A stretch of DNA of 64,000 bases, from NCBI RefSeq assembly GCF_000336635.1, contig NZ_AOLY01000048.1, positions 1 to 64,000 of the forward strand. Direction: 5' to 3'. Position numbers and translations under genes: made by a program. This DNA is from Haloarcula japonica DSM 6131. GTDB taxonomy: Archaea > Halobacteriota > Halobacteria > Halobacteriales > Haloarculaceae. A model generated the notes under the pieces. It was not told the origin of the DNA and made no database searches. It was given only the letters and a program-made list of their open reading frames with translations. Each line of letters opens with the position of its first letter. The stretch's first letter is position 1. Shown here piece after piece: positions 132 to 23,560 of the stretch.

Positions 132-944
132 ATGGTAACACACACTATCGACGGTGCTGACGGCGTCTCGTTGGCAGTTGAGGAGACTGGAAGCGGCCGG
201 CCAGTCGTCCTGATCCACGGCTACTCTCAGAGTCGGCTCTCGTGGCGCAACCAGTTCGAGTCCAACCTGACGGAAGATTTCCGTCTGATCGCACCGGACA
301 ACCGTGGTCACGGGGAGTCAGACAAACCCCACGATGCCTACGCAGACTCGGATCTGTGGGCACGGGACCTCGACGCGGTGTTCGCGGAACTCGATGTCGA
401 TGACGCTGTCTTGGTGGGCTGGTCCTACGGCGGGCTGGAGGTTCTTGACTATCTCGATGCCTTTGGCACAGACCGGATCGCCGGGCTCAACCTCGTCGGT
501 GGCGTCTCAGAGATCGGGACCGAGGCCGGCAACGCGCGCCTCGGACAGGCGTACCTCGATCTCATGGAGGGGTTCGTCTCGACCGACGTCATGGAGAGCG
601 TCCGGACCTTACAGGAGTTCGTCGATCTCTGTGTCTACGACGACCTCTCGTCGGCCGACCGGGCCTACATGCTCGGATACAATGTCGTCGTGCCGCCTCG
701 TGTCCGTGACAGTCTGCGGGACCGAACCGTGCGACACGATTCGTCGCTTGCCGCACTCGACATCCCAGTCCTGGTCACTCACGGTGAAGAGGACGCTGTC
801 ATGCTCCCCAAATCCGCACGAGAATACGAAGACCTCGCCGACGACGCGACACTCTCCATGTATCCGGAGACTGGCCATACGCCGTTCTGGGAATCGCCCG
901 ACCGGTATAATCGCGAGCTCCGGCAGTTCGCACGCGACCTGTAG
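132..944 (+). CDS. alpha/beta hydrolase
   Basis: This 270-aa protein has the alpha/beta-hydrolase fold signature: the oxyanion-hole motif VVLIHGYSQS near residues 25-34, a nucleophile elbow GWSYGG with Ser98, a candidate acid Asp221 in HGEEDA, and the catalytic His249 in ETGHTPFWESP. No signal peptide is seen, so it should be cytosolic. The substrate cannot be read from sequence. Relatives include enol-lactonases, haloperoxidase-like esterases and C-C bond hydrolases of ring-cleavage pathways. Its place at the left edge of a catabolic cluster with a flavin reductase-like gene (41 bp downstream), a luciferase-like monooxygenase and CoA-linked enzymes fits hydrolysis of a lactone, ester or ring-fission product. 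The function is inferred; the family assignment is firm. Confidence 0.9.
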   Translation: MVTHTIDGADGVSLAVEETGSGRPVVLIHGYSQSRLSWRNQFESNLTEDFRLIAPDNRGHGESDKPHDAYADSDLWARDLDAVFAELDVDDAVLVGWSYGGLEVLDYLDAFGTDRIAGLNLVGGVSEIGTEAGNARLGQAYLDLMEGFVSTDVMESVRTLQEFVDLCVYDDLSSADRAYMLGYNVVVPPRVRDSLRDRTVRHDSSLAALDIPVLVTHGEEDAVMLPKSAREYEDLADDATLSMYPETGHTPFWESPDRYNRELRQFARDL

Positions 945-953
945 GGCAGAATC

Positions 954-960
954 TTTTTTT
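954..960 (+). terminator. T-tract after the hydrolase gene
   Basis: Seven consecutive T residues lie 10 nt after the hydrolase stop codon. This is the usual archaeal intrinsic termination signal. The tract is followed by AA and sits 26-32 nt before the next ATG (986), so it may also serve as the TATA-like element of the next gene. Confidence 0.45.
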
Positions 961-985
961 AATCTGGTCGGCGGGATGGTAGTGT

Positions 986-1612
986 ATGCCATCGCTACCG
1001 ATCACGAGAATCGAGACTGTCGGTGAGCGGACTGTCGCCATCGAAGTCGAGACACCGGCGGACTTCGAGGCCTATCCGGGGCAGTTCGTCCTCGTTCGGG
1101 CGACCGTCGACGGTGAGGAGGAGACAGGCTACTACACGATATCCTCGCCGGATGTCGCCGGGTCATTTGAAATGACCGTTGCGGTCGATCCCGACGGGAC
1201 GCTCGGTCCCTGGCTCGTCGAGCGTACGCTCGGGGAGGAGATTACGGTCGAGGGGCCCTTCGGTGATATCCAGTATACCGGGGACAGCGACGCATTCGTG
1301 TTTGCACGCGGACCAGGTATTGGGCCAGCAGTCGGTATCGCTGAACGCGCCCGCCAGTTTGGCCACGACGTGACTATCGTCCACGGCGGACCCAACCCGC
1401 CCCACGGAAAACGGCTCGCTATGCTGGAAGACCGTGGCGCGACCGTCATTCGCTCAGAAGACCTCGGCTCGACTGTTGAGTCACTCGCTCTCGAATCGGC
1501 TATCACCTACGTGTTCGGCTTCCAGGAATTCGTCGACGAGACGAAGGAGGCACTGACCGCTGTCGGCGTCGACCTTGCCGCCGTCGAAATCGAGAGTTTC
1601 GGGCCAGCCTGA
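986..1612 (+). CDS. FAD-binding ferredoxin/flavodoxin reductase-like oxidoreductase
   Basis: The 208-aa protein has the two-domain layout of the ferredoxin-NADP reductase superfamily. An N-terminal FAD-binding barrel carries YPGQFVLVRA (30-39) and the flavin-contacting GYYTISSP (48-55). A C-terminal pyridine-nucleotide-type fold carries ARGPGIGPAVG (107-117). It has no [2Fe-2S] cysteine cluster, so it is a minimal reductase module. It could pass reducing power to the flavin monooxygenase encoded at 11623. The start at 986 gives a normal N-terminus and sits behind a T-rich element. The electron partner is unknown. Haloarchaea often carry such stand-alone modules, so the link to the local pathway is only an inference from position. 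Confidence 0.8.
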   Translation: MPSLPITRIETVGERTVAIEVETPADFEAYPGQFVLVRATVDGEEETGYYTISSPDVAGSFEMTVAVDPDGTLGPWLVERTLGEEITVEGPFGDIQYTGDSDAFVFARGPGIGPAVGIAERARQFGHDVTIVHGGPNPPHGKRLAMLEDRGATVIRSEDLGSTVESLALESAITYVFGFQEFVDETKEALTAVGVDLAAVEIESFGPA

Positions 1613-1694
1613 CCACACCACACTTGCTCGTTCCCGACCTATCGTTTCGCTCGGAGTCCGCGGCAGAACGTGCCCCCACTGATGCAAACAACTT

Positions 1695-1709
1695 TACTCC
1701 CTGGGAGTA
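1695..1709. promoter_or_regulatory. perfect 7-bp inverted repeat upstream of the thiolase operon
   Basis: TACTCCC-T-GGGAGTA is a perfect inverted repeat (7-bp arms, 1-nt spacer). It ends 12 nt before the thiolase ATG at 1722. The position overlaps where transcription should start, so it is a candidate repressor operator. I found no second perfect copy in the window. A degenerate relative (TACTGGGAGG) precedes the CaiB-family gene at 19344-19352, but that is probably just its Shine-Dalgarno sequence. Confidence 0.4.
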
Positions 1710-1721
1710 GATGTCAGTGCT

Positions 1722-2891
1722 ATGCAAGACGTGTACGTCGTCGGAGCGGCGCAATCCGACTTCGGCGCATTCCCGGAGGAATCGTACCGCTCGCTGTTTG
1801 CGACAGCTCTCGAACACGCGCTCGACAGTGTGGACGGTCAGCTGGATCGAACTGATATCGATGAGGCGTTTCTCGGGACGCTCGGCGTCGGCGGCCGCCA
1901 ATTAGGACTGAGTGCGCCCAGTGTCACCGAGTACGCAGGGCTCGACGGGACGTCCGCGACCCATATCGAGAACGCCTGTGCAGCTGGCGGCTCCGCCCTG
2001 CGCCAGGCGGTCCAGTCTATCCGTGCTGGCATGGCAGACGTCGCGCTCGCCGGCGGTGTCGAAATCATGACCGATATGAGCGGAGACCGGACCCGTTATT
2101 GGCTCGGCGTTTCCGGCGAAACCGAGTGGGAGCGAATGGCAGGGACGACTTTCGCGGGGGTTTACGCACAGATGGCCGACGCCCACATGGGGGAGTACGG
2201 GACGACGCGGGAGCAACTCTCCACCGTTGCGGTAAAGAACCACAGAAACGGTGCAAAAAACCCCCACGCGCACCTCCGATTCGAATGCTCACTTGAGGAC
2301 GCCGTCAACGGGACCGTCGTTGCAGACCCCCTGAACCTCTATGACTGCTGCCCGACATCGGATGGCGCAGGTGCCGCCATACTCGCGAGCCGCGAGGTTG
2401 CCAAAGAGTTGACCGACGATCCGGTCCGAATCACCGGGAGTGGCCATGCCAGCAGCCGTGTCGGCCTGTTCCAGCGGCCGTCCTTGACAAGCATTCCGGC
2501 TTCGCAGGGGGCCGCCAAGGAGGCCTACGACGACGCTGGCATCAGCGCCGAAGACGTGGATTTCGCCGAGGTCCACGACTGTTTCTCTATCGCTGAGCTT
2601 CTCGCCTACGAGGACCTAGGTTTCTGTGCCCCCGGCGAGGCCGGTACGTACATCGAGAGCGGTGCGACAGAGCCCGACGGGGAGCGGCCGGTGAACCTCT
2701 CCGGCGGTCTCAAGTCCAAAGGCCACCCAATCGGTGCAACAGGCATCGGCCAGGCCGTCGAAGTTTTCAAACAGCTTCGGGGCGAGGCGGGGGATCGCCA
2801 GGCTGATGGGCTCGAACGCGGACTCACGCACAACGTGGGTGGTTCCGGTGGCGCTGTTGCCGTCCACGTCTACGAGGGGGGATGGGCATGA
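1722..2891 (+). CDS. thiolase family protein (SCP2/acetyl-CoA acetyltransferase type)
   Basis: The 389-aa protein is a full-length thiolase of the SCP-x/archaeal type. The acyl-accepting cysteine is Cys86 in ENACAAGGSA. The middle VHDCFSIAEL motif and the C-terminal GGLKSKGHPIGATG block supply the catalytic His region. The second cysteine of classical degradative thiolases is replaced by a glycine-rich NVGGSGGA segment, as usual for this subfamily. The gene starts a three-gene operon: its stop overlaps the next start (ATGA at 2888-2891), and the HMG-CoA-synthase-like and DUF35 genes follow without a gap. In archaea these three families form a thiolase/HMGCS/DUF35 complex. Here the set lies in a catabolic context, so thiolytic cleavage of a 3-oxoacyl-CoA is as likely as condensation. 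Confidence 0.9.
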   Translation: MQDVYVVGAAQSDFGAFPEESYRSLFATALEHALDSVDGQLDRTDIDEAFLGTLGVGGRQLGLSAPSVTEYAGLDGTSATHIENACAAGGSALRQAVQSIRAGMADVALAGGVEIMTDMSGDRTRYWLGVSGETEWERMAGTTFAGVYAQMADAHMGEYGTTREQLSTVAVKNHRNGAKNPHAHLRFECSLEDAVNGTVVADPLNLYDCCPTSDGAGAAILASREVAKELTDDPVRITGSGHASSRVGLFQRPSLTSIPASQGAAKEAYDDAGISAEDVDFAEVHDCFSIAELLAYEDLGFCAPGEAGTYIESGATEPDGERPVNLSGGLKSKGHPIGATGIGQAVEVFKQLRGEAGDRQADGLERGLTHNVGGSGGAVAVHVYEGGWA

Positions 2892-9502: not shown

Positions 9503-10981
9503 ATGTCCGAACCACAGCAAAGTGGACAAAACCAGGTACAGAACTACATCGGCGGCCAATGGACGGACGCCACGGGAACGGACGGCATGGACGTCGTCAA
9601 CCCTGCGACGGGTGAGACCCTCTCCTACGTCGGATTCAGTACTGACGGTGATGTCGACGAGGCAGTCCAGCACGGTCAGGCGGCCTTTAATACATGGAGC
9701 CAACGCCCCATCGAGGAACGCATCCAGCCACTGTTCGAACTGAAGCAACTGCTTGAGGAGCACCTCGACGCCCTTGCAGAGGTCCTCGTTGAGGAGCACG
9801 GGAAGACACTCGATGAAGCACGGGGGGAACTCCGCCGTGGCATCGAAAACGTCGAGACGGCCTGCGGGATGCCGACGCTGATGCAGGCTGGCCACGTTGA
9901 GAACGCTGCCCCAAACATCGACGAGACGGCCGTCCGGAAGCCCCTCGGCGTCTTTGCGGCCGTCACGCCGTTTAATTTCCCCGGGATGATTCCACTCTGG
10001 TTTCTGCCCTATGCTGTTGCCTCGGGTAACTCGTTTATCCTCAAGCCCAGCGAGCGGGACCCGCTCACGACGAAGTATATGTTCGAACTCATCGACGAGG
10101 CCGGATTTCCTGACGGCGTCGTCCAACTTGTCAACGGGAGCGTCGATACAGTCGACGCGCTCATCGAGCACGACGGCATCGAGGGCATCTCCTTCGTCGG
10201 AAGCACCCCCGTCGCGAAGACCATTTACCAGAAGGCCGCTGCGAACGGAAAGCGGGTCCAGGCACAGGGTGGGGCGAAAAACCACATCGTCGTCTCAGAG
10301 ACTGCGGATCTGGAGTTTGCCGCCCGAAAGAGTGTTTCATCGGCACTCGCCTGTAGCGGTGAGCGGTGTCTTGCCAACGATGTCGTCTGCGTTGAGGAGA
10401 GTGTCTACGGGGAGTTCAGGGATCTCGTCGTCGACATCGCCGCCAGCCAAGTCGTCGGCTACGGCCTTGACGAGGAGACCGACGTAGGGGCGCTCATTAC
10501 GCCCGAACACGAGGAGCGAGTCCGGAACTACGTAGAGACGGGCGTACAAGAGGGAGCAAACCTCGTCCTTGACGGCCGCGACGTGTCCGTCGAAGGGTCC
10601 GAGGACGGCAACTTCCTCGGGCCCTGTATCTTCACTGACGTCACACCAGACATGGTCATCGCGCAGGAGGAGATATTCGGACCGGTCCTCAGCCTCATGT
10701 CCGTCACCGACGTTGATCAAGGCATCGAGGTGCTGAACAGTTCAGACTTCGGCAACGCCGCAAGTCTGTTCACGGGTGAAGGTGCCGAGGCACGAGACTT
10801 CCGTCACAACGCGCAGGCGGGTAACCTGGCGATCAACGCGGGTACGGCGGCACCGATGGCCTTCTTCCACTTCGGTGGCCAGAAGGATTCCTTCTTCGGG
10901 GACCTCCATGCACAAGCCGAAGACGTCGTCCGCTTCTACACCGACGAAACGGTCTACATCGAGCGCTGGCCGGATGCTTGA
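9503..10981 (+). CDS. mmsA: CoA-acylating methylmalonate-semialdehyde dehydrogenase type (MmsA)
   Basis: The 492-aa protein is an aldehyde dehydrogenase of the MmsA family: TPFNFPGMIPLWFLPYA, KPSERDPLT, the AQGGAKNHIVV block and the catalytic cysteine region ACSGERCLA (Cys284 and Cys289; Cys289 aligns with the MmsA active site). MmsA enzymes turn methylmalonate or malonate semialdehyde into propionyl- or acetyl-CoA with NAD+. ATG 9503 yields a typical N-terminus ending in YIGGQW; an upstream ATG at 9443 adds 20 unrelated residues. Following the Fe-ADH by 92 nt, it probably converts that enzyme's aldehyde product into a CoA ester. The exact substrate is uncertain. Confidence 0.88.
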   Translation: MSEPQQSGQNQVQNYIGGQWTDATGTDGMDVVNPATGETLSYVGFSTDGDVDEAVQHGQAAFNTWSQRPIEERIQPLFELKQLLEEHLDALAEVLVEEHGKTLDEARGELRRGIENVETACGMPTLMQAGHVENAAPNIDETAVRKPLGVFAAVTPFNFPGMIPLWFLPYAVASGNSFILKPSERDPLTTKYMFELIDEAGFPDGVVQLVNGSVDTVDALIEHDGIEGISFVGSTPVAKTIYQKAAANGKRVQAQGGAKNHIVVSETADLEFAARKSVSSALACSGERCLANDVVCVEESVYGEFRDLVVDIAASQVVGYGLDEETDVGALITPEHEERVRNYVETGVQEGANLVLDGRDVSVEGSEDGNFLGPCIFTDVTPDMVIAQEEIFGPVLSLMSVTDVDQGIEVLNSSDFGNAASLFTGEGAEARDFRHNAQAGNLAINAGTAAPMAFFHFGGQKDSFFGDLHAQAEDVVRFYTDETVYIERWPDA

Positions 10982-11000: not shown

Positions 11001-11034
11001 CCGTAGATCCCCTCGGGATCACGGCGGTATTTTT
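11001..11034 (+). terminator. hairpin plus T-tract terminator after mmsA
   Basis: CCGT-a-GATCCC-CTC-GGGATC-ACGG forms a near-perfect stem with a 3-nt loop (11001-11024). The run ATTTTT follows at 11029-11034. The stop of mmsA is 20 nt upstream. It resembles a bacterial-style intrinsic terminator and lies in the convergent space before the NTF2-like gene. Confidence 0.5.
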
Positions 11035-11060
11035 CGAGACTGTTCGGTCAAGCGGCTAAC

Positions 11061-11489
11061 TCAGAGCCAGGGGTACTGGTCCGTGTCCTTCCCGGCGTAG
11101 TCGGGGTCCAGGTAAATGAACAGCCGCTGGATCTCGCCGTCGCGGACCTCGAAGACGTCACACCAGCGGCCGCCGCCAGGTGCGCCGTCCGGCTGCCATT
11201 CGATCCCCTCGGCTGTCTCACCAGTGCTCGTCCCCTCCACGACGACCGTGTCGCCGTCGATCACGTAATTGAACGTCTCGTAGTCATGGGACATCGACGA
11301 TACGAGGGTGCCGACGTCACCGAACATCTCGCCTATTTCGTCATGCCCCGTCGCAATGCCCCATTTCGGATAGAACACACGCGCATCGTCGGCAAACAGT
11401 CCGAGAAAGTCCTCACCGCGATCAAGCCGCTGGAAGTATTCGAGAACGATACTCTTCCGTTCGATGGCTGGGTCTGGCATGTTACCCAT
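11061..11489 (-). CDS. NTF2/SnoaL-like small protein
   Basis: The 142-aa protein has the SnoaL/NTF2 fold pattern: an N-terminal helix with VLEYFQRLDRGEDFLGLFADDARVFYP, then strands with GHDEI and a C-terminal DGEIQRLFIYLDPDY. Family members are cone-shaped dimers that include ketosteroid-isomerase-like enzymes, polyketide cyclases, dehydratases and dioxygenase beta subunits. ATG 11480 (three codons in) is an alternative start. It is divergently arranged with the luciferase-like monooxygenase and may share a promoter region with it, so an isomerase or dehydratase step in the same pathway is plausible but not proven. Confidence 0.75.
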   Translation of the reverse strand: MGNMPDPAIERKSIVLEYFQRLDRGEDFLGLFADDARVFYPKWGIATGHDEIGEMFGDVGTLVSSMSHDYETFNYVIDGDTVVVEGTSTGETAEGIEWQPDGAPGGGRWCDVFEVRDGEIQRLFIYLDPDYAGKDTDQYPWL

Positions 11490-15616: not shown

Positions 15617-15808
15617 TCAGAACTCCGGCGGTTCCTCGCCGGTTATCCGTTCGATAGCTGTGCGGAGTTTCTCGATATTTTCATCCGAGTCGGCCTCGAA
15701 TGAGGCCCTATGCCTTGGAAGACTCGTCGCCCACCCGAGTTCTTGTTTCGTTTCGATATCGTACTGATTTTCTACGTACTGGTAGTATTCAAGTAGTTTC
15801 TCAGCCAT
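15617..15808 (-). CDS. small acidic protein coupled to the XylR_N/V4R sensor
   Basis: I do not recognise this 63-aa protein. It is charged and mostly helical (LLEYYQYVENQYDI near the N-terminus, NIEKLRTAIERITG near the C-terminus), with no cysteines or membrane segment. Its ATG is two bases after the stop of the sensor gene, so the two are translationally coupled. Because the sensor has no output domain of its own, this small protein is a candidate partner or adaptor; that is inference from position only. Confidence 0.6.
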   Translation of the reverse strand: MAEKLLEYYQYVENQYDIETKQELGWATSLPRHRASFEADSDENIEKLRTAIERITGEEPPEF

Positions 15809-15810
15809 TG

Positions 15811-16416
15811 TTATACATCAAGCAAGTCGCCATATGCCTCGCGGTACATGTCTGCCTCCTCCCCCCATTCGTCAGCAATTCGTGACTCCATTGTACAGTA
15901 CTCATGACCCGCACCGATACATTGCTTTTCCACCGAAATAACGGGGGCATTCATCATCCCCGTCCCGTATCCTGCGGCGTATCCTATCTGTGACCAGCAG
16001 ACTGGTTCAACGGACTCCTCGTAGAACATCCGGTGTTGGCTCCCCTCGTAGGAGTTGTACCAGTGTCCTTTCACGTGGAGTCGCCCGTCGTCGATATCAA
16101 TCTCCACATGGGTTGTTTCAGCGCGACAGATGCCCTGATAGGTATGCAGGCGCGGTGCCATCTCGAGTAGATCGCGGTCAGTATCCCAGTCGTAGGCCAC
16201 CTTCATCTCTAACGCATCGGAGAATCCCGCCCGGAATCCGAACCTGAGGAAAATCTCTCGCGCACGCTCAAATCCGATCTCTTCGATGATTTGATAGCGC
16301 AACAGCCCGAGGGCGTCCGCATGGAGGATAACCATGCGGTCACTCCCGTAGGTTGTTATCCCTCGCTCGAGGTCGAATTTGAGGTCGCGGACGAGGTCGA
16401 AGTCCGATGCTTTCAT
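15811..16416 (-). CDS. stand-alone XylR_N/V4R aromatic-sensor protein
   Basis: The 201-aa protein matches the sensory half of bacterial phenol/toluene regulators (XylR, DmpR, MopR): a XylR_N segment (about 5-90) and a V4R domain (about 100-180). From memory, MopR binds phenol with His106 and Trp134 and zinc with Cys155, Glu178, Cys181 and Cys189. Here His91, Trp119, Cys140, Glu163, Cys166 and Cys174 keep exactly the same spacing. The AAA+/sigma-54 and DNA-binding domains are absent, as expected in archaea, and no other output domain is seen. It diverges from the iron-ADH-family gene at 16564 and is followed by a coupled 63-aa gene. It most likely senses a phenolic or aromatic effector in the cytosol. 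Confidence 0.85.
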   Translation of the reverse strand: MKASDFDLVRDLKFDLERGITTYGSDRMVILHADALGLLRYQIIEEIGFERAREIFLRFGFRAGFSDALEMKVAYDWDTDRDLLEMAPRLHTYQGICRAETTHVEIDIDDGRLHVKGHWYNSYEGSQHRMFYEESVEPVCWSQIGYAAGYGTGMMNAPVISVEKQCIGAGHEYCTMESRIADEWGEEADMYREAYGDLLDV

Positions 16417-16563
16417 TCTTATACGGCAATACTTGCATTACGTATTAATGGTTTTTACCAGAGAAAGAACATGAACCTCGATCTCGTGTTGTCGTATACT
16501 TCTGGCTGACCCGGTTGCGGAGATACTATTATGTGGACACGTGCGTAATCCAAACTCGGTAGA

Positions 16564-17787
16564 ATGGATGGTAACGCCTACAGCTTCGAGTATCAGCCGG
16601 GTGCGATCCATCATGGCCCGGGAGTAGTTGCAGAGTTCGGCTCCGAACTGGAGCGATATGGTGCCTCGCGTGCGCTCATTGTTACCGACGCGACGCTGGC
16701 TGACGTGCCTGCGATCATGGATCCGCTCCGTGATGGCATCGGTGATCGACTGCACGGGGTCTTCGATGACGTCACGCCTGAAAAGTACCTACGAGACGCT
16801 GCCGCCGGAGCCCGTCGCGTTCGTGAGGATGACATTGACGCACTGGTCCCGCTCGGCGGCGGCAGCAGCCTCGACATGGCCAAACAGATCAGCGTTCTCG
16901 CGGGACACGACCGACCGGTCGATGAGGTCACAGACGAAATTCTCGACCGCGGAGAGATGGTTCTCCCCGACGACGAGGTTGTTCTCACGGACATCTTCGC
17001 CGTTCCCACGACACTTCCGGGCGCTGACCTTTCTCAGGTTGCAGGCGTCAAACTCAGTCTGGATCCAGCAGGGAAATCTAAGGATGAGATTCCCAGTGCT
17101 GGTGTCTCCGATAGTAGGCTCATGCCGACTGCGGTCTTTCACGACCTCAACCTGTTTGCGACGACACCGAATCCGATCCTTGCACGGTCAGCGATGAACG
17201 GTTTCGATAAGGGCATCGAGATGATCTATACCCGACATCACAACCCCCTCACTGACGGTACTGCGATCCGCGGCGTCCGACTGCTCTATGAGAGCCTCCC
17301 CGCACTCGCTGACGATTCCACGAGTGAGGAGGACCTCTCACAGATCTTGCGGGGCATCGCAGCCGCTCAGTACGGCCTATCGACGCCAAACGCGTACCGG
17401 GCGTCTGTAATTCACTCGTTCGGCCACGCGATTGCCCGGAACTACAACGTTCAGCAGGGCGTAGCCCACGCTATCGCTGCACCCCACGTGCTTCGCTATC
17501 TATTCGAACAAGTGGACGGCCGACGTGACCTGCTCGCCGAGGCCTTCGACGTACGAGACGAGGCTGCGACCCCGGAGGAGACAGCTGATGCCATCGTCGA
17601 CGCCGTTACCCAGACGCGTGATGCGCTTGATCTTCCGTCACAACTCCGCTCAATCGATGGAACCGAGAAGGCGCATTTCCCCTCCCTCGCAAAAGCGGTC
17701 ATCGAAGATCCGTTCATGGATGCAGGGCCGGAACACCTTGACGCCGCACAGTCAGACCTCGAAGCCGTGTTTGAGCAGATGTGGTAA
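16564..17787 (+). CDS. iron-ADH-superfamily protein with a degenerate metal site
   Basis: The 407-aa protein has the group III alcohol dehydrogenase/dehydroquinate-synthase-like fold: a nucleotide-binding domain with PLGGGSSLDMAKQ (96-108) and an all-helical C-terminal half. Compared with classical ligands, the Asp and His of DALTHAIE are Asn212 and Lys216 (MNGFDKGIE), and the late His of VPHG is Gln298 (YNVQQG); only His284 and His288 remain. It is therefore unlikely to bind iron normally and may use no metal, a different metal or a different reaction. The start is the first ATG after the divergent promoter shared with the aromatic sensor, which suggests control by that sensor. A TatD-like hydrolase gene follows after about 100 nt. 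Confidence 0.82.
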   Translation: MDGNAYSFEYQPGAIHHGPGVVAEFGSELERYGASRALIVTDATLADVPAIMDPLRDGIGDRLHGVFDDVTPEKYLRDAAAGARRVREDDIDALVPLGGGSSLDMAKQISVLAGHDRPVDEVTDEILDRGEMVLPDDEVVLTDIFAVPTTLPGADLSQVAGVKLSLDPAGKSKDEIPSAGVSDSRLMPTAVFHDLNLFATTPNPILARSAMNGFDKGIEMIYTRHHNPLTDGTAIRGVRLLYESLPALADDSTSEEDLSQILRGIAAAQYGLSTPNAYRASVIHSFGHAIARNYNVQQGVAHAIAAPHVLRYLFEQVDGRRDLLAEAFDVRDEAATPEETADAIVDAVTQTRDALDLPSQLRSIDGTEKAHFPSLAKAVIEDPFMDAGPEHLDAAQSDLEAVFEQMW

Positions 17788-17883
17788 GGTAGCCCGACGA
17801 CGCTGGACGTATATCTGACAGTTCGTTGTGCGGTGAGATCTTCCGGTGCCAACTTTCAAATCACTCTCGCCCTCATATCCGAT

Positions 17884-18885
17884 ATGACACAACAGCCCAC
17901 CCGTCGACCAACTGACGAAGCTCACCTCACTGACGATGAATTCTCCCCGCCGCCGTCGCTTCTGAATCTCCCCTGGATAGACTGTCATAATCACGCACAG
18001 ACGCTCTCGTGGGAGGACCGAGAGCGGTACTCGCTTACCGGCTGCCAGGGGATGGTCATGGTTGCGTCAGGATACCACTGGACGCCGTACAAACCCGTCG
18101 AAGCCGAGGACATCCGATTTCTCTGGGACGATGTAATCAACCGGCGACGGACGATAGAGCGGAATCACTTTTTCGAGGCCCGGCTCGCTTTCGGTGTCCA
18201 CACCGGCGTTCCGATAGCCAACCCGGACGACCTCTTTGCGGCGATGGACGAATACTGTCGTACGGAGCCAGTGGTTGCTCTCGGCGAAACGGGTATTACT
18301 CCCGCACAGCACGTCCAGTCCTGGGGGCTTGATGAACAACGTACAGTCGTCGGGGCACAAATGGAACTGGCGGCCGACCACGACCTCCCTATTATCCTTC
18401 ACACGCCGAACAAGCGCCCTGCCGACCAACCGACCTACCGGCCAGGCGTCGGTACTCCTGGCTATGAGAAGAACACAAACCTGACGCAAGACCCGGTACT
18501 CACGGGAGAGAATCCGTCACTCGAAGCGGTTCGCATGGATATCGATATTGCCGACCAGGTGGGCCTTCCCGAGGATCAAATCGTTGCCTCGCACGCCGAC
18601 CCGAACAATGTCGACTTCCTATTGTCAGAGACGGAATGCTACGCCAGCTTCACGCTCGGATATCCGTGGTTGACTGGTGTCACTGCCGCCGATGTCGCCG
18701 ATGCTATCGACCGATACGGACCCGACCGGATTCTCGTCGAGACTGATTGTGCGAATGTTCTCCGCACTGATGTCCGCTCGGTCAAACGGGCTATCCTCGA
18801 ACTGTACCGCCTGGGCGTTGACGAGGACGATATCCGACAGGTTGTGTTAACGAACCCGTCCGCTGTGTTTGGATTTGATTACTGA
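17884..18885 (+). CDS. TatD-like metal-dependent hydrolase
   Basis: The product (333 aa from ATG 17884) is a TIM-barrel amidohydrolase of the TatD type. Metal ligands are visible in order: IDCHNHAQ (HxH), ALGETGI (bridging Glu), IILHTPN (His), IVASHADPNN (His) and LVETDCAN (Asp). An in-frame ATG at 17833 exists, but the first 17 residues have no similarity and the region holds promoter-like sequence. TatD proteins act on phosphodiesters or small amides and lactones; this branch is not a typical nuclease. It follows the odd Fe-ADH-like gene on the same strand. The pairing may form one pathway step. Confidence 0.85.
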   Translation: MTQQPTRRPTDEAHLTDDEFSPPPSLLNLPWIDCHNHAQTLSWEDRERYSLTGCQGMVMVASGYHWTPYKPVEAEDIRFLWDDVINRRRTIERNHFFEARLAFGVHTGVPIANPDDLFAAMDEYCRTEPVVALGETGITPAQHVQSWGLDEQRTVVGAQMELAADHDLPIILHTPNKRPADQPTYRPGVGTPGYEKNTNLTQDPVLTGENPSLEAVRMDIDIADQVGLPEDQIVASHADPNNVDFLLSETECYASFTLGYPWLTGVTAADVADAIDRYGPDRILVETDCANVLRTDVRSVKRAILELYRLGVDEDDIRQVVLTNPSAVFGFDY

Positions 18886-20853: not shown

Positions 20854-20958
20854 AAGCGCGAGGATATAAGCTCCCTAAGCTGTTCCAGCACCGCCAAAGC
20901 AGAAATAGACAATGATTGGTTCAAGCCGTTCAGTTTTACATGGAATCAGTCCAGCTGA
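20854..20958 (+). mobile_element. decayed C-terminus of an IS6-type transposase
   Basis: A frame ending at TGA 20956-20958 encodes a tail with NDWFKPFSFTWNQ. About 12 of the last 23 residues match the transposase tail at the start of the window, and nucleotide similarity is visible over about 75 bases. Upstream codons (KR...S...C.S.A.AE) still match the family pattern as I remember it, but the rest of the element is gone. It has the same orientation as the copy at position 1. The surrounding stretch 20577-21023 is otherwise AT-rich and without genes. Confidence 0.6.
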
Positions 20959-21023
20959 ATGCGAGCCAAATGATAGTACGCACGTTTAATAGTCGCCAAC
21001 CCTTTAATTCGGGTAGAAACAGT

Positions 21024-21779
21024 ATGGGATGCAAGGTCGAGACACTGGCTGACCGGTATGACCTCACGGCCCCTGGATCAGGGAACCACTCTCTCGACGA
21101 GTATCTCGTGGCTCGCTGGACCGGCCGTGACGGACGATCAGCGGTCGGGTACAAATCGCTCACGGAGTGGTTCAACAAACGGGTTCTCAAAGAGCTATAC
21201 GCCGAAGTAGATCGGGAAACACTGGGTGTCCATCTGGACCGTGAGTACGAACTCATAACCGGTGATGACGACGTAGCGTACGACGAGCTGGCAGCCGCGC
21301 TTGCTGCTGATGGACTCGACATCGAGCGCATCGAGAGCGAACTCATCTCTTGGAGCACGATGCGCCATCATCTCAAGGGGTGTCTCGAAGCGGACAAAGA
21401 CACTAACGAGGCGAAGACCGACTGGGAGTCAAACACCGTCGAGGTTGCCCGACAGCGGACCGAAGAAAAGGCCCAGTCAGTTCTTTCTTCGCTGGCATCG
21501 AAGGAGCGACTCGCAGATGCTGAGTCCGCCGAAGTAGATGTTCAGGTAAAACTCGGCTGTTCGGATTGTTCCGTTCGGGTCCCGTTTGACGAGGCGGTCG
21601 AGCGTGGTTACGTCTGTGAACAGCACGTCTCAGATGAGGACGAGAAAGAGACCACCGTGGATAGCTGGAAGAACACTCTCTCATCAGTGATTACACCCTA
21701 TGGTGCGGTCGAAGCGGTCCAGTGTCTGTTGCTCGAAGAACCATCCCTCCTAGAGACACTCCTGCTCCCAGTACTCTGA
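21024..21779 (+). CDS. RdfA-like (rod-determining factor family) protein
   Basis: The 251-aa protein resembles the haloarchaeal RdfA family: a helical N-terminal half with SLDEYLVARWTG and SLTEWFNKRVLKELY, the IESELISWSTMRHHLKGCL segment, and a C-terminal zinc ribbon with CSDC (179-182) and CEQH (198-201). Family membership is from memory of the sequence pattern. RdfA is needed for rod shape in Haloferax volcanii; many haloarchaea have extra paralogues next to SMC-like genes. ATG 21024 gives the conserved start; the open frame extends 36 codons upstream into the transposase relic. The next gene starts two bases after the stop, so both proteins are made together. Confidence 0.75.
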   Translation: MGCKVETLADRYDLTAPGSGNHSLDEYLVARWTGRDGRSAVGYKSLTEWFNKRVLKELYAEVDRETLGVHLDREYELITGDDDVAYDELAAALAADGLDIERIESELISWSTMRHHLKGCLEADKDTNEAKTDWESNTVEVARQRTEEKAQSVLSSLASKERLADAESAEVDVQVKLGCSDCSVRVPFDEAVERGYVCEQHVSDEDEKETTVDSWKNTLSSVITPYGAVEAVQCLLLEEPSLLETLLLPVL

Positions 21780-21781
21780 AC

Positions 21782-23560
21782 ATGACATGGGAACTCACAG
21801 TTGAGAATATCGCCGGGATTCGTAGCGCAAACGAGGCAATCGAACCTGGTGTGAACGCCGTCCGTGCGAGCAACTGGCAAGGGAAATCGAGCTTTCTACA
21901 GAGTATCCAGACAGTGTTCGGGACTGAGACGCCGCTCACTGAGGGTACTGACCAGGGCCGGGTCGAGCTCAACGCGGACGGCGAGGCGTTCGAAGTTCGA
22001 CTCGAACGGGACGGCGTGGCGGTCAGTCGCCGCGGTACCCCGTACCTTTCGTCCGAGTATGATCAAATCTGTGCCGATCTATTCGCATTTCTCGACGAGA
22101 ATAACGCTGTTCGAAAGGCAGTCCGAGACGGCGACCCGCTTGAGCCGGTCCTTACGAGGCCGCTCGATTTCGAGGACATCGACGGCCAACTGGCCGAACT
22201 GCGGTCCGAACGAGACCAGGTCGAACGCGAACTCGAACGGGCTAATGATGCGGCAGAGCGGCTCCCCAAACTGCAGGAGCAAGAGACCAAGTTTGAGGCT
22301 GAGCTTGAGGAACTACGCAGCGAACGGGAGGCGCTCGACGCCGACGGCGACAACACCGAGGCCAGAGCAGAACTCAGCGACCTCCGTGCAGAGCGAGAAC
22401 GCGTGCAGCGACGTGTCGACCGGCTTGAGCAGACTGTCGAGCGAGTGGAAACCCGGCTTGCCGAGAACCGCACTGAACTCTCTGAGCTGACTGTCCCGGA
22501 GGAGAGCGATATAGAGATGGAGTTAGAACAGGTTCGCGAGCGTCTCCGATCACTCGAACGGGACCGAGAGCTGTTACAGGGGGTTTTCGAGGCTAACAAG
22601 CGGGTACTCGACTCGGACCGAACTGAGTTGCTGACTGACGTCTCTCGGGATGTACTCGGGGACACAGTCGAATGTTGGCTCTGTGGGACGGAAACGACGA
22701 GCGACGAAATGGCTGACAAGCTCGACGCACTGGACGAGCAAATTACCGAGCTACGTCGGGAGGAATCAGAGTACCGGACACGAGTCGAAGAGCTTGAGGC
22801 CCGCCGAGACGAGGTCAAAACCGCCCGCCGGCAGGAAGCGGACTTGACGGACCGAATCGGCGAGCTGGAAACTTCTCTCGACGAAAAAACCGAGGAACTC
22901 TCTTCAGCCCGCGACCGACTGGCTGATCTGGAGGCCCGCGTCGATGAGGTGACAGAGTCCGTCGAGACAGAATCGGAACGGCTCACCGACATAGAGAGTG
23001 AGATCAAATACACAGAAGCCGAACTCGAAGACGCTCGGGCGGAACTGGCCGACGCCGAATCCCGTGCCGAGCAGCGTGAGATGCTGAGCGCAGAGTATGA
23101 CGATCTCACAGCGGAAATCGCTTCGCTTCGGAACCGTAAAGATGAGATCAAGCAGGACCTCCGTGAGTCGTTTTCGACAGCGCTAGCGGAGCTGTTCGAA
23201 CGCTTCGATACGGGCTTCGAGATGGCTCGCCTGACCAGTACGTTCGACCTCGTCATCGCCCGTGATGGGCGCGAGACGACACTCGATGCCCTTAGCGAGG
23301 GTGAGCGGGAGCTACTCGGCTTCGTCGTTGCACTCGCTGGTCACGAGGCGTACAACGTGGGTGAGCGTGTCCCGGTGTTGCTCCTCGACGGGCTGGGAAG
23401 CCTCGCAAGTGACAACATCGCCACCTTCGTCGAGTACACTGTGGACCGGGTTGACTATCTTGTCTTGACGGCGTATCCTGAACACGACGGATTCGAAGCA
23501 AACGAACTTTCCCCGTCTGACTGGGATGTCATCTCTCATCAGGCCGAAACCAAATCGTAA
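21782..23560 (+). CDS. archaea-specific SMC/Rad50-related ATPase
   Basis: The 592-aa protein has the SMC/Rad50 layout: Walker A in ASNWQGKSSFLQ (about 30-40), a long coiled coil, a central zinc-hook-type CWLCG (Cys298, Cys301), a second coiled coil, the ABC signature LSEGERELLGF and Walker B VPVLLLDGLGS at the C-terminal end. It is shorter than true SMC or Rad50 (over 800 aa). The start follows the rdfA-like stop by two bases; in-frame codons upstream overlap that gene and are not needed. SMC-related genes beside rdfA are a recurring haloarchaeal pair, suggesting a role in DNA organisation or cell shape. The hook would dimerise two molecules around zinc. Confidence 0.85.
   Translation: MTWELTVENIAGIRSANEAIEPGVNAVRASNWQGKSSFLQSIQTVFGTETPLTEGTDQGRVELNADGEAFEVRLERDGVAVSRRGTPYLSSEYDQICADLFAFLDENNAVRKAVRDGDPLEPVLTRPLDFEDIDGQLAELRSERDQVERELERANDAAERLPKLQEQETKFEAELEELRSEREALDADGDNTEARAELSDLRAERERVQRRVDRLEQTVERVETRLAENRTELSELTVPEESDIEMELEQVRERLRSLERDRELLQGVFEANKRVLDSDRTELLTDVSRDVLGDTVECWLCGTETTSDEMADKLDALDEQITELRREESEYRTRVEELEARRDEVKTARRQEADLTDRIGELETSLDEKTEELSSARDRLADLEARVDEVTESVETESERLTDIESEIKYTEAELEDARAELADAESRAEQREMLSAEYDDLTAEIASLRNRKDEIKQDLRESFSTALAELFERFDTGFEMARLTSTFDLVIARDGRETTLDALSEGERELLGFVVALAGHEAYNVGERVPVLLLDGLGSLASDNIATFVEYTVDRVDYLVLTAYPEHDGFEANELSPSDWDVISHQAETKS

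Follow-up and report, generated by a model that had tools for sequence, protein, structure and literature searches.

The locus lies in a stretch of 64,000 nucleotides from the archaeon Haloarcula japonica DSM 6131, referred to here as the window, and comprises the following features.

15617..15808, minus strand: module gene, encoding a 63-aa protein predicted to be all-helical (ORF, BLAST, alignment and model)
15809..15810, minus strand: gap of 2 nt between the sensor stop and the module start
15811..16416, minus strand: sensor gene, a 201-aa ORF with an ATG start, with XylR_N at residues 7-107 and V4R at residues 119-177
Within the sensor: putative anchor His91/Trp119 and putative zinc ligands Cys140/Glu163/Cys166/Cys174, assigned by homology
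16417..16563: intergenic region (GC 0.43) separating the sensor start from a divergent gene for an Fe-type alcohol dehydrogenase (Fe-ADH)
16564-18885, plus strand: genes for the Fe-ADH and a TatD-like hydrolase, divergent from the sensor

The intergenic region probably holds the promoter of the sensor-module pair. A sequence-based scan for sigma-70 promoters found nothing and was set aside as not apt for archaea.

The product of the sensor gene is a genuine archaeal member of the XylR_N-V4R group, as the initial annotation had proposed. Both domains, in that order, exceed their curated Pfam cut-offs: XylR_N (PF06505) matches at an E value of 7.1e-26 over the entire profile (1-101 of 101; 90.3 bits, cut-off 23) and V4R (PF02830) at 6.5e-9 over positions 1-59 of 62 (36.2 bits, cut-off 31), so that the outcome against which the annotation had warned, a generic V4R match only, did not arise. 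Four significant matches in all were obtained from the PDB by sequence, namely, PoxR (5fru, E = 6.6e-42), two sequences of MopR (7vqf, E = 7.5e-29; 5kbe, E = 1e-28), and CapR/DmpR (6iy8, E = 3.7e-28), and these alignments run without gaps across 178-185 residues. The sole NCBIfam match was to the MobR phenol regulator model, at 107.7 bits against a model cut-off of 999, and MetOD1 gave no Pfam match. Neither an AAA+ domain nor a Fis-type helix-turn-helix (HTH) was recognized by Pfam in the 201-aa ORF, in agreement with the annotation, and the chain architecture of a sigma-54 activator (bEBP) is absent.

In the gapless register, residue i of the sensor corresponds to residue i+15 of the MopR chain, and the six residues singled out by the annotation, together with their spacings, coincide with MopR residues 106, 134, 155, 178, 181, and 189. 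The available excerpts of PMC10715001 name His106 and Trp134 of MopR and describe zinc bound by three cysteines and one glutamate; those of PMC7264223 give His100, Trp128, and Glu172 of DmpR, all in agreement with the sensor register, along with Cys151/177/185, each 2 above the register-derived positions 149/175/183. None of the six varies among the window protein and its 10 same-class relatives (11/11). Among 24 aligned proteins (these 11, L025, L049, and 11 plasmid-borne bacterial proteins), the tryptophan is present throughout, and the histidine in all but XylR of pWW0, which has a tyrosine (23/24). As a control, seven distant archaeal ORFs in six loci (L050-L055) were inspected: they keep the Cys/Glu/Cys/Cys set but have Phe at the histidine position and Val or His at the tryptophan position. 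Because these distant ORFs retain the zinc set only, that set is not diagnostic by itself, whereas the His/Trp pair is; judged by the alignment, the dyad marks the phenol-type group and the zinc set is general. In L055, two such XylR_N/V4R-like ORFs (800-1432, minus strand; 1393-2052, plus strand) lie on opposite strands with their starts overlapping by 40 nt, and both have the zinc residues without the anchor dyad.

The annotation had also spoken of a complete ligand and zinc site, of which the anchor and the zinc ligands stand and most of the remaining pocket does not. Of 11 further pocket positions of MopR named in the accessible part of PMC10715001, the sensor keeps four (the equivalents of Pro, Tyr161, Ala162, and Tyr165) and differs at seven (Phe99 to Leu, Val112 to Cys, Val114 to Ala, Phe132 to Gly, Ser166 to Gly, Tyr176 to Ser, and Ile191 to Met), and thus does not have the hydrophobic wall of the MopR phenol pocket. 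Given these differences, the pocket of the sensor is likely to be larger than that of MopR and differently shaped. The position of MopR Tyr176 (sensor 161) is occupied by Ser in the window protein, by Glu in the six other unfused relatives, where it is an odd residue for a phenol pocket, and by Ala or Gly in the four fused ones. An AlphaFold2 model of the sensor, computed from an input of only two sequences, has a mean pLDDT of 39, and it is homology that suggests that the six residues cluster in the fold.

The description of the sensor as stand-alone is not supported as it was worded. The 63-aa module gene begins 2 nt past the sensor stop, and a module gene adjoins the sensor gene in all seven unfused loci (the window, L015, L017, L020, L021, L022, and L023), in each case 2-3 nt after the sensor stop, a spacing that suggests translational coupling of the two; in the other four loci (L016, L018, L019, and L024), the module forms the C-terminus of the sensor protein itself, in fusions of 262-269 aa. 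Of 391 genomes searched from the same class, 11 contain PF06505, and the module occurs in those same 11, with one copy each. The module profile was made from these 11 PF06505 genomes and recovers them by construction, and, for the same reason, the informative part of the result is that the other 380 genomes have no match and that there is no second copy. A chance figure of 1/C(391,11) for the co-occurrence was not used, since the profile was derived from those genomes.

This regularity bears on the idea that the sensor is a decayed or captured bacterial domain with no dedicated output, next to which the 63-aa protein is incidental. The distribution of the sensor is patchy, as might be expected of such a remnant: only 3 of 32 genomes of the same genus encode it, with just 44-46% identity to the window protein, which implies a history of horizontal transfer or of much, repeated loss. 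The six functional residues and many others are nevertheless invariant in all 11 proteins, the frames are open and free of stops in all 11 genomes that carry PF06505, and the module is adjacent or fused in every one, so that we consider this explanation very improbable.

In a midpoint-rooted tree of 24 sequences, the 11 same-class proteins fall on one side together with L025 and L049 (support 95/91). Within the eleven, the four fused proteins group together (98/90), and so do six of the unfused ones (93/94); the seventh, the window protein, is the lone basal branch, weakly supported (84/79). The two relatives from outside the class encode different chains.

L049:34-1926, minus strand: XylR_N + V4R + PAS + HATPase_c, from an archaeon outside the class, anchor and zinc residues all present
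L025:9935-11056: XylR_N + V4R fused to STAS, from Myxococcota

The STAS domain of L025 suggests that an output of the partner-switching type is also used after XylR_N-V4R. Among bacterial plasmids, 107 records matched XylR_N; of the 40 of these matches that were listed, 29 carry a sigma-54 regulator annotation, 6 are labelled "XylR N-terminal domain-containing protein" (two of these were inspected, with annotated coding sequences of 1,929 and 1,815 nt), and 5 have no annotation, and no bacterial stand-alone XylR_N protein was found among the plasmid matches listed. A search of genome contigs with one sequence returned one locus. The textbook XylR_N sensor works with sigma-54, a factor that archaea do not have, and from this the initial annotation had concluded that the output of this sensor must be new. 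The absence of sigma-54 does not imply this, as ordinary outputs are found in the nearest relatives outside the class (PAS and HATPase_c in L049, STAS in L025); an unfamiliar output is nonetheless likely here, because the module belongs to no Pfam family above cut-off.

The module was searched in several ways. No Pfam family matched its members above the cut-off, and none appeared at E <= 5 when five members were rescanned singly. DUF6945 (PF22182) stayed below its cut-off, reaching 17 bits against 28 in 1 of 11 members; a whole-genome search for it gave 0/20 with the control also silent, and no paper on it was found in the literature. There was no confident match in the PDB by sequence, plasmids yielded matches by tblastn at E values of 0.7-1 only, and no relatives were found in IMG/VR. 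The AlphaFold2 model of the module, computed from the single sequence, has a mean pLDDT of 78 and four helices, of which the third is the least certain; Foldseek comparison of this model with the PDB gave nothing significant, the best hit, at E = 3.4, not being an HTH.

These data weigh on the simplest proposal for the function of the module, namely, that it is a DNA-binding HTH and that sensor and module make up a one-component transcription factor, split in seven genomes and fused in four. The conserved stretch GKIELAKxTNLPGTKAS resembles, by eye and with no tool involved, the core of an HTH, the four helices of the single-sequence model would suit one, and sub-threshold similarities point the same way, to CENP-B_N in 3 of 11 members (best E = 0.038) and to a PHROG annotated as a transcriptional repressor in 1 of 11 (E = 0.086). 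There is also a parallel in MetOD2, the four-helix output of methanogen response regulators, which the part of PMC5847659 at hand presents, as a guess, as an HTH variant. On the other hand, no HTH family exceeded the cut-off in the members scanned, those rescanned singly included; the Foldseek search did not retrieve one; and the net charge of the module is -4 to -11. Direct DNA binding by the module is a serious rival to the reading that we prefer, that of an output acting through protein contacts, although we regard it as unlikely.

A further observation, awkward for a DNA-binding output, comes from a membrane sensor. When 324 genomes sampled from the phylum were searched with the module profile, two matched, that of the window and G613, which belongs to another class.

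L069:5949-6992 (G613): a 291-aa HAMP sensor, followed without a gap by a 55-aa relative of the module

The 291-aa protein has a HAMP domain above the cut-off, sub-threshold matches of the cache type, and no kinase domain. The relative was retrieved in this one genome with a profile E value of 3.5e-8 and shares 25% identity with the window module (E = 7e-7 in a single comparison); a BLAST comparison of the L022 module with it gave no alignment, and the link between the two, seen at the level of sequence, is weak. PF06505 occurs in eight genomes of a phylum sample of the same size, presumed to be the same sample, and G613 is not among them. Should the similarity be real, the module would be a separable unit placed after sensors without an output of their own.

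The gene neighborhoods bring in aromatic oxidation. PF02332, the family of methane/phenol/alkene hydroxylases, was found in 4 of the 391 same-class genomes, exactly the four in which sensor and module are fused, and in neither the window genome nor the six other unfused genomes. The four PF02332 genomes represent only two genera and therefore are not four independent cases; the figure of 3.4e-7 for the overlap of monooxygenase and fusion assumes independent genomes, and we do not lean on it.

L016:9394-17172: toluene-4-monooxygenase-like gene set, with PF02332 alpha and beta subunits among the genes; also in L018, L019, and L024

By Pfam and BLAST, the order in L016 is IclR, an extradiol-dioxygenase-like protein, TmoB, Rieske ferredoxin, MmoB/DmpM, and the beta and alpha hydroxylase subunits; the fusion gene lies 1.1 kb past the alpha gene and is encoded on the other strand. 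L018 has the same set, as judged from BLAST homologues; L019 has homologues of the hydroxylase, TmoB, Rieske, and MmoB/DmpM genes, after which the contig ends; in L024, ~6 kb separate the alpha gene from the fusion, and another PF02332 gene is located at a greater distance. The interval that separates the L016 fusion from the alpha hydroxylase gene also encodes two proteins, of 65 and 78 aa (10318-10515 and 11010-11246, minus strand), with homologues in L018, L019, and L024 and no Pfam match.

Proximity to monooxygenase genes would also suit a pair that handles a ligand rather than regulates, that is, an accessory protein acting as an aromatic carrier or buffer or, in the fused clade, as an assembly or activity factor of the monooxygenase. 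According to the portion of PMC2253512 available, V4R domains also exist on their own and are believed to be binders of hydrophobic compounds. No DNA-binding or catalytic domain was recognized in the pair. Against this, the pair is found without PF02332 in 7 of 11 genomes, its closest solved relatives (PoxR, MopR, and DmpR) are regulators, and the strand of the L016 fusion, opposite to that of the monooxygenase genes, is unlike that of an operon subunit; we rate an accessory role as rather improbable and retain the regulatory reading.

No aromatic pathway was recognized among the neighbors in the window, which include the Fe-ADH, TatD-like, CoA-transferase, luciferase-like, and riboflavin genes. 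The Fe-ADH and TatD-like genes are a possible target of the sensor, by position only, and are common to no other locus. Elsewhere in the window (20916-23560, plus strand), the gene for RdfA (rod-determining factor A) overlaps the first part of a 612-aa ORF, for which AAA_13 gave a weak match below threshold. Families typical of haloarchaea, RdfA among them, and the acidity of the proteins point to Halobacteria as the class of the window. Comparison of 12 loci, with imperfect gene calls (greedy, longest ORF), found no common neighborhood of the unfused pair; apart from the pair and the monooxygenase genes, no neighbor is common to more than 3 of the 12, and composition-scored ORFs and Pfam scans of the neighbors gave a mixture without a common theme (COX1, FtsZ, PrkA, aminotransferase, amidohydrolase, Usp, and others). 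The extradiol dioxygenase family PF22247 was found in 4 of 31 genomes searched, the same four with the fusion, and in none of the seven unfused ones, that of the window included. Strong matches to gentisate dioxygenase (E < 1e-58) occur in eight of the 31 (4/4 fused, 1/7 unfused, this being G367, and 3/20 others), and HpaB_N has weak matches in 14 of the 31, none over the cut-off; both families were considered as a key to the unfused group and rejected, neither accounting for its distribution. Archaea that degrade aromatics are known: in Sulfolobus solfataricus, phenol induces catechol-2,3-dioxygenase and, strongly, tmoA-E, a cluster similar to that of the fused clade (PMC7820114, in part), and the word "regulator" is absent from the available text of that paper on the induction. 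For the fused clade, a role in phenol sensing is a reasonable guess, but for the window protein it is no more than a lead, because no PF02332 or PF22247 was found in the unfused genomes and the neighbors in the window form no recognized aromatic pathway; phenol as the ligand of the window protein should be read accordingly, as a possibility drawn from homology.

We propose that the pair is a two-subunit, sigma-54-independent, ligand-sensing regulator, the output of which is the small module, a proposal for and against which we see the balance as even. The sensor would dimerize like DmpR and PoxR. Its ligand, hydrophobic and probably hydroxylated, would lie between His91 and Trp119, and the pocket would be wider than that of MopR. 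Ligand binding would then shift the C-terminal helix of the sensor; in DmpR, phenol moves this helix and the linker that follows (PMC7264223, excerpt). The shift that drives the B-linker and AAA+ domain in DmpR might here move or expose the module, which, in the fused proteins, sits where the linker of DmpR follows the C-terminal helix of the sensor. The module may thus stand in for the AAA+ and DNA-binding domains, acting in cis in the clade with the monooxygenase and in trans in the window. In the fused clade, phenol or a related aromatic compound would be the likely signal, and the regulator would probably control the monooxygenase genes.

Of the two ways in which the module might act, we consider contact with another protein, for instance a DNA-binding regulator, more likely than direct binding of DNA. 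Contact is favored because the module is acidic and has no HTH above threshold, its relative lies beside a membrane sensor, and archaeal outputs act mainly through protein contacts, or are thought to in the section of PMC5847659 available. Relatives with STAS or PAS and HATPase_c after the same sensor indicate that other outputs are possible and count for the proposal, and the position of the G613 relative, directly after a HAMP sensor that lacks a kinase, is as expected of a separable output part. More tentatively, as a possibility toward which we incline less, the module may be an undescribed, separable archaeal output for at least two unrelated sensors (XylR_N-V4R and HAMP), and XylR_N-V4R plus module may enable some archaea to sense phenolic compounds and, without sigma-54, to switch on a toluene/phenol monooxygenase. 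The combination of a phenol-class sensor with one small module, fused exactly in the genomes that encode the monooxygenase, is a concrete candidate for the detection of aromatics by archaea, and the existence of split and fused forms makes the output function of the module directly testable.

In open-licence full-text searches, no description came up of an XylR_N sensor from archaea with a partner of this kind, nor of a haloarchaeal toluene/phenol monooxygenase; either may still be in print. MphX, a repressor from a phenol cluster, was considered and rejected as a counterpart: it has 293 aa, and the accessible text of PMC3063778 reports no link to XylR_N.

With PoxR, MopR, and DmpR (CapR), the window protein shares XylR_N and V4R without gaps over ~180 residues, the His/Trp anchor, and the Cys/Glu/Cys/Cys ligands; it differs in lacking the AAA+ domain, the sigma-54 engine, and the Fis-type HTH, in place of which it has a 63-aa helical partner, and from MopR also in the pocket wall, at 7 of 11 named positions. 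XylR of the TOL plasmid pWW0 (L061) belongs to the same sensor fold family and likewise has a small residue (Ala) at the position of MopR Phe132, but it has Tyr for the anchor His, responds to the toluene/xylene class, and is annotated as a sigma-54 activator. L049 and L025 resemble the window protein in the anchor, the zinc set, and Gly at position 117 and differ in their output domains (PAS and HATPase_c, and STAS, respectively), with no module found. That V4R domains occur alone or in archaeal signaling is already known: the available parts of PMC2253512 suggest that they signal in cis or in trans, and those of PMC5847659 describe a V4R-like fold in archaeal signaling and, in MetOD1, the three-Cys cluster of PoxR and MopR. 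Unlike MetOD1 and stand-alone archaeal V4R proteins, the window protein combines XylR_N with V4R and has the His/Trp anchor. Finally, HalX, HalOD1/2, and MetOD2, as presented in the same excerpts of PMC5847659, are short helical archaeal signaling domains that occur alone or fused, as the module does; the module has no Pfam match to them and goes with an XylR_N sensor, not a receiver domain.
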